Shown one piece after another: positions 40,917-44,437 of a DNA stretch of 44,437 nt (position 1 is its first letter; each line of letters starts with the position of its first letter). The DNA is from an uncultured Lachnospiraceae bacterium (GTDB taxonomy: Bacteria; Bacillota; Clostridia; Lachnospirales; Lachnospiraceae). Both the position numbers and the translations under genes were made by a program. A model generated the notes under the pieces. The model worked only from the letters and a program-made list of their open reading frames with translations. It was not told where the DNA came from and ran no database searches. Location: contig CADATP010000011.1 of assembly GCA_902790935.1 (NCBI GenBank), positions 1 to 44,437 of the forward strand. The letters are read 5' to 3'.

Positions 40917-42209
40917 TCAGTTTTTGTGGTATCCTGTATTTCCTAAAGCATAGATATTATATGCCGCTACATGGTCATAAATACATCTCCATGAGCTCCA
41001 TGCGTTACCGCTGACGCAGATATAGGTTTTACCGGAATCGGTCTTCATCATACTTACGCCGCAGCATCCGGATTCATTTACAAATCCCGTTTTAGCCCCG
41101 CATACATACCCTCCGGTATCCTTATCCTCGATTCTTCTGAGGAACCAGTTTGACAGAGGAATACCTTCGGAATGGAAATCCGAAATGCTTGTTGAATACT
41201 TTCTAGTACCCAAAACCTCACTTAAAAAGTCATCCTTCATTGCAGCGGCAAGAATAACAGCAATATCATTACAGGTACTGTAGTTGTTGTCGTCATATAC
41301 TCCGACGCAGTTGGCAAAATGTGTAGTTTCGGCAATTCCCAGGGCTGCGCAGTTGTCATTCATAAGCTTAACGAAATCTTCATGTGTTCCTGCAGTATAT
41401 TCAGCCAGCATATAAGCAGATTCTCCGCCGGAAGGAAGTATCGTTCCGTAAAAAAGATCTCTTACAGTAACAACTTCACCTTCCTCAAACCCGGCGCTTG
41501 AACAGCCGTTTTTAAGGTCGTAGGAAATAGCGTTGTATGAAAGTGTAACCTTTTCATCAAGCATTTCATCCGTAATAAACTGTCTTGCTGTTAATACAGT
41601 CATTACCTTTGTCATTGAAGCCGGAAACATTTTTTCAAATCCGCTTTTTTGAGCAAGTACCTTCCCAGTATCCACATCTACCATAAGCCCGTATGTGGAA
41701 TAAAACTCATCCGAGCCCATATATGCGGTATTTCCATCTGATGTAAAAACAATATCACCGCTCTTAAAATCATACCGTTTCGGAAGACTTGAAGGGTAAG
41801 ATACTCCTCCTCCAAGAGCGCCGTTTTCGTTAGTTTCATTGTAAACGGTATCCGGAGCTATTAAAGCGCTGTCTTTATCGGGATTACCGTAAATATCACC
41901 GCTTTCGGCGTTATCAAAGCCTCCGTCAGATGGATCCTCCGAAGAAATATCAGTAGCAAGGGAATCATTTTCCTCTTCCAGAACCGTACCAATGGGTATT
42001 ACATTGTTTGAAACATTTTTCTTAGGAATATGCTTTACCACAAGCACAATTCCCGTAATGATCACTGCTAATAAAGCAAGCAAAATCAGACCGCCAAAGA
42101 ACAGTTTCCTGTTGCGAAGCTGACGTTTCTTTTCAGCTTCGACTCTGGCGCGTCTGATTTCGCATTTTATTCTGTATTCCTCTTCGGAATAGAAATTATT
42201 TTGTGTCAT
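40917..42209 (-). CDS. Membrane-anchored D,D-carboxypeptidase (S11 family)
   Basis: The 430 residues contain a basic cytoplasmic tail, one membrane anchor (about 36-58), a Ser/Asp-rich linker to about 140 and a penicillin-binding transpeptidase-like domain. The catalytic S198-M-T-K201 and K373-T-G375 motifs are intact; the middle SxN motif reads S260-G-G, lacking the usual Asn. The enzyme would trim the terminal D-Ala from peptidoglycan pentapeptides. ATG 42209 overlaps the upstream ferredoxin oxidoreductase stop by 4 bp (ATGA) with GGAGCG upstream; an N-terminal signal anchor replaces the usual cleavable signal and C-terminal amphipathic helix of PBP5-type enzymes. Confidence 0.9.
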   Translation of the reverse strand: MTQNNFYSEEEYRIKCEIRRARVEAEKKRQLRNRKLFFGGLILLALLAVIITGIVLVVKHIPKKNVSNNVIPIGTVLEEENDSLATDISSEDPSDGGFDNAESGDIYGNPDKDSALIAPDTVYNETNENGALGGGVSYPSSLPKRYDFKSGDIVFTSDGNTAYMGSDEFYSTYGLMVDVDTGKVLAQKSGFEKMFPASMTKVMTVLTARQFITDEMLDEKVTLSYNAISYDLKNGCSSAGFEEGEVVTVRDLFYGTILPSGGESAYMLAEYTAGTHEDFVKLMNDNCAALGIAETTHFANCVGVYDDNNYSTCNDIAVILAAAMKDDFLSEVLGTRKYSTSISDFHSEGIPLSNWFLRRIEDKDTGGYVCGAKTGFVNESGCCGVSMMKTDSGKTYICVSGNAWSSWRCIYDHVAAYNIYALGNTGYHKN

Positions 42210-43147
42210 GAATCGCTCCGAGTAAGTAATTCTTCCCATCTTCTGTCTACTTCTTCCTGGAAAGCAGCGATGAGATGCTGGTTCTCAGGCTTGAAAAGAT
42301 GCTTGAATCTTCCCTGCTTAACAAGGAAATCTTCAAGAGGAAGCTTATTTTTCGGTCTGTAGTTTACGATCCACTTACCCTCTATAACCTCAAATAAAGG
42401 CCAGTAGCAGGTTTCAACAGCAAGCTTACAGATTTCCGGAAGATCCGGAGTGTCATATCTCCATCCTCTGGGACAGGGAGCGAGAATATTTAAAAAGGCA
42501 GGTCCCTTTGTATAGATCGCTTTTTCGGATTTAACGTAAAGGTCCTTAAAGTTGCTGATAAATGTTGTTTGGGCAACATAAGGGATGTTATGGGCTGCCA
42601 TAATTCCCGCAAGATCCTTGCGGATCTGGGGCTTACCGTTTGAACACTTACCCGAAGGAGTTGTTGTTGTATCGGCATACTGGGGAGTAGCTGATGAACG
42701 CTGGATTCCCGTGTTCATATAGGCTCCGTTGTCATAGCAGACATATACCATATCATGTCCTCTTTCCATAGCACCGGAAAGGGACTGAAGTCCGATATCG
42801 TAGGTTCCGCCGTCTCCGCCGAAGGTTATGAACTTATAAGTTTCATCGATCTTTCCGCGCTTTTGTAAAGCCTTAAAAGCGGTCTCGACTCCCGAAAGGG
42901 TAGCTCCGGCGCTCTCGAAAGCGGTATGGATATAGCTGTCTGTATAAGCTGTATAGGGGTATGTGTAGGTAGAAACCTCGAGGCAACCCGTCGCATTACC
43001 AACTACAGCTTTATCTCCGGGATGAAGGGCTTTTAATACGTTTCTTACCGCGATGGTACCGCCGCAGCCTGCGCACATTCTGTGGCCGGGGGCAAGCCTC
43101 TCTTCCCTCTCCTGAATTTCCTTAAAATTAAATACGCTTTGTTCCAT
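42206..43147 (-). CDS. porB: 2-oxoacid (pyruvate-type):ferredoxin oxidoreductase, beta subunit
   Basis: The 313 residues bind thiamine diphosphate and a [4Fe-4S] cluster. Cys25/Cys28 (HRMCAGCGG), Cys55 (GNATGCLEV) and a later Cys (LAPCPRGW) are candidate cluster ligands. The thiamine diphosphate signature runs from GDGG (111-114) to NGAYMNTG. The complex oxidatively decarboxylates pyruvate or a branched 2-oxoacid and reduces ferredoxin. Substrate cannot be fixed from sequence. A weak AAAGGATC precedes ATG. The alpha subunit gene lies upstream but is separated by a 453-bp DUF559 unit, which is unusual. Confidence 0.93.
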   Translation of the reverse strand: MEQSVFNFKEIQEREERLAPGHRMCAGCGGTIAVRNVLKALHPGDKAVVGNATGCLEVSTYTYPYTAYTDSYIHTAFESAGATLSGVETAFKALQKRGKIDETYKFITFGGDGGTYDIGLQSLSGAMERGHDMVYVCYDNGAYMNTGIQRSSATPQYADTTTTPSGKCSNGKPQIRKDLAGIMAAHNIPYVAQTTFISNFKDLYVKSEKAIYTKGPAFLNILAPCPRGWRYDTPDLPEICKLAVETCYWPLFEVIEGKWIVNYRPKNKLPLEDFLVKQGRFKHLFKPENQHLIAAFQEEVDRRWEELLTRSDS

Positions 43148-43167
43148 GATTGATCCTTTTCTTATAT

Positions 43168-43220
43168 AAGCCTTCCCCTTGAGGGGAAGGTGTCTGCGAA
43201 GCAGACGGATGAGGTGAAAA
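43168..43220. repeat. Left inverted-repeat arm of the DUF559 unit
   Basis: The 53-bp arm contains hairpin A (CCTTCCCC-TTGA-GGGGAAGG, 43171-43190) and hairpin B (GTCTGC-GAA-GCAGAC, 43192-43206), then GGATGAGGTGAAAA. The DUF559 stop codon (43221-43223) directly adjoins it. Confidence 0.85.
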
Positions 43221-43514
43221 CTAATTAACTATATGATTCCATATATCCTCACAAACTGCTTCAAATCTTAGATTGATATCATTATTTGGATATCTTAAAA
43301 CAGTAATACCTAAACTCTTTAAATAATTATCCCTTTCTATATCTTCTTCTCTTCCGTCTTTTTCAAAATGTTGAGATCCATCCAGTTCAATAACTATTTT
43401 TTTAGATGGAATATAAAAATCAACAATATAAGGACCTATAACTTTTTGTCTTTTAACATTTACTTTTAATCTTTTTAAAAAGTCATACCATAAATGTCTT
43501 TCTTCTTTAGTCAT
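43221..43514 (-). CDS. DUF559 (Vsr-like fold) endonuclease-domain protein
   Basis: The 97 residues from ATG 43514 carry the DUF559 core: QKVIGPYIVDFYIPSKKIVIELDGSQH, with the candidate metal-binding Asp, Glu-Leu-Asp and His, and LRYPNNDI. The fold belongs to the restriction-like/Vsr group, so nicking or cutting DNA is possible but unproven. In-frame translation continues upstream (KINSDKNILTSYSQSLRKN) for 18 codons to ATT at 43568, just after GAGGTG in the right arm. That region resembles the usual N-terminus, while ATG 43514 has no ribosome binding site. The gene may use ATT or have lost its start. It fills the space between the arms, is AT-rich and interrupts por. Confidence 0.8.
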   Translation of the reverse strand: MTKEERHLWYDFLKRLKVNVKRQKVIGPYIVDFYIPSKKIVIELDGSQHFEKDGREEDIERDNYLKSLGITVLRYPNNDINLRFEAVCEDIWNHIVN

Positions 43515-43569
43515 GTTTTTACGAAGCGACTGTGAATATGAAGTTAAAATGTTTTTATCTGAATTAATT

Positions 43570-43620
43570 TTTTCACCTCATCCGTCGCTTCGCGACACCT
43601 TCCCCTCAAGGGGAAGGCTT
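43570..43620. repeat. Right inverted-repeat arm of the DUF559 unit
   Basis: The 51-bp arm is the reverse complement of the left arm except for two bases fewer in hairpin B (GTCGC-TTC-GCGAC, 43584-43596) and a few A residues. On the minus strand its end GAGGTGA can act as a Shine-Dalgarno for the DUF559 frame. Confidence 0.85.
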
Positions 43621-43666
43621 TATATTGTCCTTATCTGAAATAACCATATTCATTATGAAAACGCTT

Positions 43667-44437
43667 TTATTCTCTAAGTCCTAAATAAGGATACTCACTG
43701 TAAGAAATCTCGCCCTTTGAAAGCTTGATAAGATTTTCGAATACTCCCTCGATATCCTCTACTTTAACGTCACGTCCCGAAAGTCCGTACATAATATTAA
43801 CGGTCTCGGCCGTGCACTTAGCTCTGTACATAGCAGCAGTCAGCTCAGCTCCAAGGGGGCCTCCCTGAGTAGAGTAGCTTTCCGAACGATCCATAATAGC
43901 AACCGCTTTGCATCCTTTAAGGGCGGCTGCAAACTCTTCTCCGGGGAAAGGACGGAATACTCTTACCTTCATCAGGCCTGCCTTAATTCCGCTTTCTCTT
44001 AGCTTATCAACAGCATCCTTAACAGTTCCGCAAACAGAACCAATGGCTACTACAGCATACTCGGCATCTTCAAGTCTGTATCCTTCGTAGAAGCCGTACT
44101 TTTGTCCGGTTATCTCCTCGAACTCTTTAGCCACGTCAAGTATAACCTTTTTGGCGTTTCTCATAGCCTCTGAATGTGCCTTTTTAGACTCCATACAGTA
44201 GTTGGAAACCGCATAAGGTCCGATAGCCATCGGTTCGTTATGCTTAAGGAGATAATGATCGGGTTCATACTCTCCGACAAATTTCTTAATAGGCTCATCA
44301 TCCCAAAGGGTAATGTTCTGTACGGCATGGGATGTGATAAATCCGTCCTGGCATATCATAACCGGAAGATGCACACCCTTAGCCTCGGCGATCCTGTGAG
44401 CCTGAAGGAAATTGTCGTAAACTTCCTGGTTGGTCTC
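43667..44437 (-). CDS. porA: 2-oxoacid (pyruvate-type):ferredoxin oxidoreductase, alpha subunit (N-terminus cut by window edge)
   Basis: The frame is open to the right edge, so the first part of the protein is missing; 256 residues are visible, ending at YSEYPYLGLRE. The start residues at the edge read ETNQEVYDNFLQAHRI. Recognisable alpha-subunit features are VMICQDGFITSH, the DAEYAVVAIGSVCGTV nucleotide-fold segment and the late DRSESYSTQGGPLGAE loop. The subunit pairs with porB to bind thiamine diphosphate and would be preceded by gamma and delta subunits outside the window. A 453-bp DUF559 unit separates its stop from porB, so polycistronic mRNA must pass through two strong hairpins. Confidence 0.92.
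   Translation of the reverse strand, partial: ETNQEVYDNFLQAHRIAEAKGVHLPVMICQDGFITSHAVQNITLWDDEPIKKFVGEYEPDHYLLKHNEPMAIGPYAVSNYCMESKKAHSEAMRNAKKVILDVAKEFEEITGQKYGFYEGYRLEDAEYAVVAIGSVCGTVKDAVDKLRESGIKAGLMKVRVFRPFPGEEFAAALKGCKAVAIMDRSESYSTQGGPLGAELTAAMYRAKCTAETVNIMYGLSGRDVKVEDIEGVFENLIKLSKGEISYSEYPYLGLRE

Follow-up and report, generated by a model that had tools for sequence, protein, structure and literature searches.

A DUF559 endonuclease gene bracketed by inverted two-hairpin repeats between porA and porB: a possible REPtron-like selfish unit in a rumen Clostridia lineage

Between the genes for the alpha and beta subunits of pyruvate:ferredoxin oxidoreductase, the DNA studied here carries a compact block of 453 bases (positions 43168-43620) in which two inverted arms of 53 and 51 nt enclose one DUF559 gene. 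Positions throughout are those of the window, by which we mean the whole stretch of 44,437 nucleotides that was analysed. Our preferred reading, to which we would assign a probability of roughly 0.55, is that the block is a small selfish unit resembling a REPtron, in which the gene for a Vsr/EDxHD-type endonuclease is bracketed by inverted copies of its partner repeat, a REP-like two-hairpin palindrome with GGATGAGG at its end. Such a unit would work as a REPtron does, with a PD-(D/E)XK nuclease where the REPtron has its HUH transposase. For some families of bacterial palindromic repeats no mobiliser is known, and DUF559 represents a concrete and testable candidate partner for them; DUF559, a family of unknown function, in turn gains a likely substrate in the hairpin repeats that accompany it in several phyla. 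If the reading is true, the known kinds of mobile DNA would gain a means of spread that needs no transposase.

The inverted complementarity of the two arms is perfect over 27 nt at their outer ends (43168-43194 with 43594-43620) and over 17 nt further in (43204-43220 with 43570-43586). Each arm consists of hairpin 1 (CCTTCCCC-TTGA-GGGGAAGG), hairpin 2 (GTCTGC-GAA-GCAGAC or GTCGC-GAA-GCGAC) and then GGATGAGGTG at its inner end (Table 1). With up to 3 mismatches allowed, the hairpin-1 pattern matches twice in the whole window, both times in the block, against a mean of 0.01 in shuffled sequence. A covariance model trained on Bacillota arms only, referred to here as R1, recognises both the left arm (72.6 bits, E 2.6e-23), which was itself part of the training set, and the right arm (70.3 bits, E 1.8e-22). 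Apart from DUF559, no ORF of at least 60 aa lies between the arms; there is no transposase gene inside. The complementarity, the PF04480 match and this lack of any other ORF bear out the preliminary description, which had reported a 453-bp block with inverted-repeat ends, a single DUF559 gene and a position that splits the alpha and beta subunit genes. It had also called the body AT-rich, and at 25.2% GC the body is indeed lower than all 882 stretches of 349 bp sampled every 50 bases along the window.

The right arm carries a Shine-Dalgarno-like GAGGTG a few bases ahead of the nuclease reading frame. Upstream of the ATG this frame stays open to an in-frame ATT at 43568, which would give about 115 aa; the extension resembles the N-terminus of related proteins and, judged by reading the alignment, the ATT aligns with their ATG. 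Given that an ATT stands where relatives have ATG, the window copy may be a weakened one or rely on a rare start. An imperfect 24-nt direct repeat (79%) has one copy immediately inside the right arm and the other immediately outside it (43544-43567 and 43620-43643). An Rfam search of 42000-44437 gave sub-threshold matches only (Acido-Lenti-1, 20 bits compared with the 37 needed), and a DNA search of plasmid and phage sequences with the block returned no match.

Table 1. Features of the block and of its surroundings in the window
Feature	Position	Strand	Remarks
PorB, pyruvate:ferredoxin oxidoreductase beta subunit	42206..43147	-	downstream neighbour
TATAT by left arm	43163..43167		proposed duplication, probably chance
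Left arm	43168..43220	+	hairpin 1 43171-43190, hairpin 2 43192-43206, core GGATGAGGTG 43207-43216 inward-facing
DUF559 (Vsr-like PD-(D/E)XK) endonuclease gene	43221..43514	-	97 aa from ATG at 43514; PF04480 E 3.4e-24
Right arm, inverted	43570..43620	-	hairpin 1 43598-43617, hairpin 2 shorter, core inward-facing
TATAT by right arm	43621..43625		proposed duplication, probably chance
PorA, alpha subunit, C-terminal part	43667..44437	-	upstream neighbour; runs off window

The DUF559 protein is under purifying selection; the median dN/dS is 0.07 over 21 overlapping pairs, and the residues that are invariant in an alignment of 40 DUF559 sequences include E15, D42, E53, D55, Q58, H59 and D72. A predicted structure model (mean pLDDT 79) matches 3hrl, a DUF559 protein, and 3r3p, the homing endonuclease I-Bth0305I, in fold; its match to Vsr is weaker (1vsr; TM 0.62, E 0.027). 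The best match that is not itself DUF559 is 3r3p_B, with an E value of 1.1e-4 and a TM score of 0.70 by query length. There is also a profile match to the EDxHD homing-endonuclease group (E 0.014), and some mitoribosomal proteins score in the fold search as well. As modelled, the protein folds like members of the Vsr/EDxHD homing-endonuclease group, which agrees with the earlier suggestion that the element is homing-like.

The block is a lineage-specific insertion, since the arms pattern occurs in only 2 of the 31 genomes of the genus, the window genome and one other (G009), and since all of the 28 por loci from elsewhere are free of arms. The latter figure comes from a search of 29 por loci with R1, in which the one locus with arms (L010) belongs to the other carrier and in which four matches of 9-10 bits among the remaining 28 are at chance level. 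The unit lies at the same place between porA and porB in both carriers, which also have identical PorB proteins. A comparison of this junction in relatives had been suggested at the outset; of eight more relatives that were displayed, with PorB 88-98% identical, seven have the PorA end following a spacer free of the unit, and the eighth (G005) has unrelated sequence after porB. In the wider family, the DUF559 protein query matched 9 of 299 genomes, and the matches other than the window's own were partial, of 30-50% identity and mostly within long reading frames. The nearest relatives outside the genus, up to 73% identical, come from rumen Clostridia such as Butyrivibrio, and the block was probably acquired by horizontal transfer. 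The window genome (83% complete) holds one pair of arms only, the unit's own.

A scan of species genomes yielded 519 relatives of the DUF559 protein, and the best 80 loci were kept, nearly all of them from Clostridia with a few from Negativicutes (e.g. Anaerovibrio); counts given for 79 loci omit the copy in G009 (L048). Within 250 bp of the DUF559 gene, at least one arm is present in 75 of these 79 best-scoring loci, with arms on both sides in 43 and no arm in 4. Arm density is 3.98 per kb within this distance and 0.057 per kb elsewhere in the same loci, an enrichment of approximately 70-fold, and these counts establish that DUF559 and the arms are associated. The arms occur in both orientations around the gene. 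Besides the order arm-gene-arm, DUF559 often adjoins a complete arm pair that has no gene in it, as seen in several loci (L056, L063, L073, L075, L083, L092, L097, L100, L111 and L127). In 29 of the 80 loci the GATGAGG core ends no more than 12 nt ahead of the start codon, in the manner of a Shine-Dalgarno sequence.

The arms are both structured and dispersed. Across an alignment of 65 arms, the two-hairpin structure is kept in 91% of pair cells, and two-sided pair changes number 139 compared with 42.5 after shuffling. The nucleotide preceding stem 1 and the one preceding GATGAGG vary together, C accompanying G or G accompanying T, in 157 of 167 arms from the four main classes, out of 169 distinct arms (p 4e-31), an observation that linked subfamilies could explain as well as contact would. 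For 50 of the relatives' loci the whole genomes were scanned, and arms are present in 49 of them, at 2 to 167 pattern matches per genome, and a backward control pattern gave none there. Given that the arms are members of a dispersed family of REP-like repeats, the unit is more like a REPtron than a stand-alone insertion sequence.

Gene and arms also go together at the level of whole genomes. Among 391 Clostridia genomes, compact DUF559 was found in 48 and arms, by pattern, in 54, with the backward control pattern matching three genomes once each. A hand tally gives 32 genomes with both, 16 with DUF559 only, 22 with arms only and 321 with neither, which corresponds to an odds ratio of 29 (p 7e-21) without phylogenetic correction. 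When R1 was applied at E <=0.001, a threshold that some genomes pass only just, arms were found in 12 of the 16 genomes with DUF559 only, leaving 4 without arms; they were borne out in 18 of the 22 genomes with arms only and not in the other 4; and they appeared in 1 of 41 tested genomes from the class with neither. Full-length compact DUF559 is present in none of the 19 arm-bearing genomes confirmed by R1 in this way (18 from the arms-only class and 1 from the class with neither).

Four genomes (G182, G427, G570 and G709), which are 96-99% complete, hold at least 60 arms each without a full-length compact DUF559. G709 has only two partial DUF559-domain matches, and in 15 of the 20 regions fetched from it there are 16 similar arm pairs of 139-153 bp nested inside other inverted repeats, so arms can apparently be amplified as passengers without compact DUF559. 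The arms of the 14 G182 loci displayed (L296-L309) are single, and several immediately follow a stop codon, ahead of the next gene; in 37 regions of this arm-rich genome, which is without DUF559, no ORF family among 259 ORFs recurs in more than two regions. It may be that the arms outlive the nuclease, or that the nuclease lives off arms moved by something else.

Beyond these genomes, tblastn found relatives in 38 plasmid-collection records and 7 phage records, of which 24 and 2, respectively, make up the 26 plasmid/phage loci described here. A perfect hairpin lies within 250 bp of DUF559 in 24 of the 26 loci for a stem of 7, in 20 for a stem of 8 and in 13 for a stem of 9. The corresponding hairpin densities per kb near the gene are 4.5, 3.1 and 2.1, compared with 1.0, 0.35 and 0.23 in comparison stretches, and since those stretches were mostly coding, some of the excess could be due to gene ends in general. 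Visual inspection shows CCCTCACCC...CCTCTCCC palindromes next to DUF559 in Azospirillum and Sinorhizobium, and CCCCCAGAATTGGGGG types in Pseudanabaena. The palindrome pair beside DUF559 in Sinorhizobium K101 (L225 1848-1995) resembles what we take to be the rhizobial RIME1.

R1 finds matches at E <=0.01 in 11 of the 26 plasmid/phage loci. The best scores are from Shinella (49 and 40 bits), followed by two contigs whose deposits label them unverified phage (31.5 and 28.7 bits), Sinorhizobium K101 (26.7 bits) and Azospirillum (25.4 bits); some of the weaker matches cover hairpin 1 only. The other 15 loci gave no match at this threshold, their palindromes being either too different for R1 or absent. 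As a control, 30 loci with a Y1 (IS200-type) transposase from the sample of 391 Clostridia genomes gave one match at the same threshold (L215), at 15 bits. Given the 11 matches in 26 loci compared with 1 in 30 controls, the association between DUF559 and palindromes is not a property of one lineage. Among viral contigs there are 49 relatives, and R1 matches at E <=1 in six of the first 18 (L336, L337, L338, L339, L340 and L342) and gives no match in the remaining 31; the role of phages as a vehicle looks minor. An enzyme of the IS200/IS605 type was also considered as the partner of the arms and set aside, with Y1_Tnp present in 234 of the 391 genomes and an arm match near 1 of the 30 Y1 loci, a weak test in that these loci were the best-scoring Y1 matches and were not chosen from arm-rich genomes.

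Evidence on movement comes from the sites that the gene occupies. In three species of Deinococcus, DUF559 lies in three different gaps of one hpa operon, and the other two proteins are 88% and 70% identical to that of D. proteolyticus. At the site of the gene in D. NW-56, the two flanking genes overlap by 4 bp in D. proteolyticus. The D. proteolyticus gene is itself bracketed by a 56-nt inverted repeat, and R1 sees arms there weakly or not at all. DUF559 genes are also found in the sufB-sufC gap and within a transhydrogenase operon, and related DUF559 genes with such repeats occupy many different loci, with no single conserved insertion site. The preliminary description had held that its mobile-element reading would fail if relatives all carried the unit at the same por site or if its location never varied; these conditions were examined and the reading was not refuted, the locations being varied.

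The same description had proposed the flanking TATAT as a 5-bp duplication of the target. The motif is present on both sides of the block, and a 5-base match at a fixed boundary has a chance of about 0.3% in this AT-rich context. We compared 78 arm pairs taken from related loci, with and without a gene between the arms and in part from orthologous sites (the window's own pair excluded), at offsets of 0-7 and lengths of 4-6 and found no common target duplication; three settings of offset and length gave 4 matches compared with 0.3-1.1 expected. A fixed target duplication as a general feature is rejected on this basis. The mobile element first described is partly supported: what stands is a compact insertion found in two genomes of the genus, with varied loci and no transposase inside, and what finds no support is the duplication as a general feature. 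Four loci (L055, L066, L091 and L224), picked by eye among matches in 103 loci of which the rest were mostly arm or low-complexity sequence, carry the 3' end of a neighbouring gene on both sides of the unit (31, 57, 45 and 138 nt, respectively). In L066 the two copies encode nearly identical residues with partly different codons. To judge from these four sequences, such copies look more like the outcome of break repair with one-sided homology than of a transposase.

In the mechanism that we propose, the nuclease would recognise the hairpin arm together with the GATGAGG core, as the recurring pairing of gene and arm suggests, and would break the DNA at or near the arms or at the target, as its fold and conserved residues lead one to expect. 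Repair would then copy a single arm, a pair of arms or the entire unit to sites between genes, frequently close to the ends of genes, and would leave no target duplication of fixed length, in keeping with the observed absence of a common one. Cleavage, and the spread of the unit by the DUF559 nuclease itself, are what we infer. Several results count against this reading: the 19 arm-bearing genomes that lack full-length compact DUF559, the arm pairs apparently amplified in G709, the single pair of arms in the window genome, the armless loci (4 of 79) and DUF559-only genomes (4 of 16), the 15 of 26 plasmid/phage loci that R1 does not match, the lack of a common duplication, and the interpretation of a Caulobacter DUF559 protein as a repair enzyme. 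In the window lineage, one unit would have arrived between porA and porB, with another rumen Clostridium as its probable source, and the ATT that replaces its ATG suggests a possibly weakened copy. Similar enzyme-repeat pairings in other bacteria suggest a little-noticed, transposase-free spread of repeats. A broader proposal is that palindromic intergenic repeats form a superfamily that spans phyla (in Clostridia, Alphaproteobacteria, Deinococcus, Cyanobacteria and some phages) and whose missing dedicated partners are the DUF559 nucleases; such a class of mobile elements would spread through nuclease cutting of hairpin repeats and host repair, without a transposase, recombinase or reverse transcriptase; this we offer tentatively, with the odds somewhat against it.

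The main rival to a selfish unit of nuclease and partner repeat is that DUF559 is a parasite of the repeats. On this account, the arms are REPs moved by other machinery and the gene homes into or beside arm pairs, which serve it as harmless landing sites and as homology for copying. The 19 sampled genomes with arms and without full-length compact DUF559 would fit, as would the several loci in which the gene lies beside, and not between, complete gene-less arm pairs and the finding that the best fold match outside DUF559 is a homing endonuclease. We nonetheless consider it unlikely, given that no other gene family recurs near the arms in the 37 regions of G182, albeit in one genome only, and that gene and palindromes are found together in other phyla though the palindrome sequences differ. 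The alternative that DUF559 is a Vsr-type mismatch-repair nuclease, with the arms as incidental intergenic repeats, draws on the fold match to Vsr (1vsr) and on VsrA, a DUF559 protein of Caulobacter, which is described as required for the SOS response on loss of a cytosine methyltransferase, with a role in mismatch repair proposed (PMC12907096). It is decidedly improbable in view of the enrichment of arms beside the gene, the patchy presence of the gene and its changing locations; in addition, a motif test, and a motif test only, found the PCQ-type motif of C5-methyltransferases in none of the 80 loci of up to 6.3 kb.

Two further accounts do without the nuclease as the agent of spread. If the arms were intergenic elements acting at the RNA level, as a post-stop hairpin with a Shine-Dalgarno-like core, then DUF559 would be cargo expressed through them and nothing would be mobile. 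The proximity of the core to the start codon in 29 of 80 loci and the single arms of the displayed G182 loci, several of them right after a stop codon, are what one would then expect, but the presence of the unit in 2 of 31 genus genomes, its different gaps in one Deinococcus operon and the occurrence of arms in both orientations around the gene make us think this very improbable. An ordinary insertion sequence or MITE, with a 5-bp target duplication and a DDE transposase located elsewhere, could account for the TATAT on both sides, the inverted ends and the nested arm pairs of G709. This explanation is weakened by the 78 arm pairs that share no common duplication, and with the arms of the window unit enclosing no transposase ORF we regard it as scarcely credible.

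Returning to the reading of the block as a selfish unit akin to a REPtron, the likeness can be set against several known systems. A REPtron is a gene bordered by palindromes, relatives of which are dispersed in the genome (PMC8266576). Like the REPtron (RAYT/TnpA-REP with GTAG REPs), the unit has the gene of a small, putatively DNA-cleaving enzyme bordered by inverted palindromes, and relatives of the palindromes are dispersed in intergenic space, single and paired. Matches to the arms pattern number 2-167 in 49 of the 50 relatives' genomes, whilst the window genome has its two arms only. Unlike the REPtron, its enzyme is a PF04480 PD-(D/E)XK Vsr-like nuclease rather than an HUH/Y1 tyrosine transposase, the consensus of the 65 aligned arms combines two hairpins with a GATGAGG core and lacks a GTAG tag, and DUF559 locations vary, with several copies per genome occurring. 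Given the mismatch in enzyme and tag, we do not file the unit as a REPtron. It shares the fold and size of its catalytic domain with the EDxHD homing endonuclease I-Bth0305I, but is flanked by repeats and has no single conserved insertion site, and no intron or intein was seen here. MITEs and insertion sequences are similarly short and intergenic, with inverted ends and dispersed gene-less copies, whereas the DUF559 unit lacks an internal transposase and a fixed target duplication and has arms with internal structure. With the Vsr/VsrA repair endonucleases it has the DUF559/Vsr fold in common, and it differs in its pairing with repeats and in the lack of a methyltransferase motif in its 80 loci.

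The arms are also comparable with CGTC REPs and rhizobial RIMEs as palindromic repeats without a known mobiliser. CGTC REPs have a CGTC tag, an 8-9 bp stem that starts with A-T pairs and a CCA tail, and they are reported to have no known dedicated transposase (Di Nocera 2013, PMC3733652); RIMEs are rhizobial repeats that are mentioned in PMC2573895. In open-licence PMC full text, judged mostly from titles and the starts of abstracts, there was no recognisable report that pairs DUF559 with palindromic repeats.

Further repeats lie in or around some of the units and arms. In the G009 copy (L048, approximately 2890-2945) and in L053 (approximately 2850-2905), a second palindromic repeat, of the type GCGC..CCGGGGGA..TTGCGC..GAAGACA or GGAGACA, breaks up hairpin 1 of an arm, at nearly the same place in the two different genomes, as if it targeted arms. 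The G709 arm pairs (L276-L290) have similar cargo and lie inside a further inverted repeat (..AACAATGACA..), forming a composite element that was apparently amplified recently. Six loci (L061, L065, L074, L089, L158 and L164) have DUF559 units in similar flanks that contain an inverted repeat (GGGACAAAAAA ... TTTTTTGTCCC) and may be a vehicle element, and in L064 a near-identical terminator-like hairpin (AAAACGGAAGCGC..GCGCTTCCGTTTT) stands on either side of the unit.
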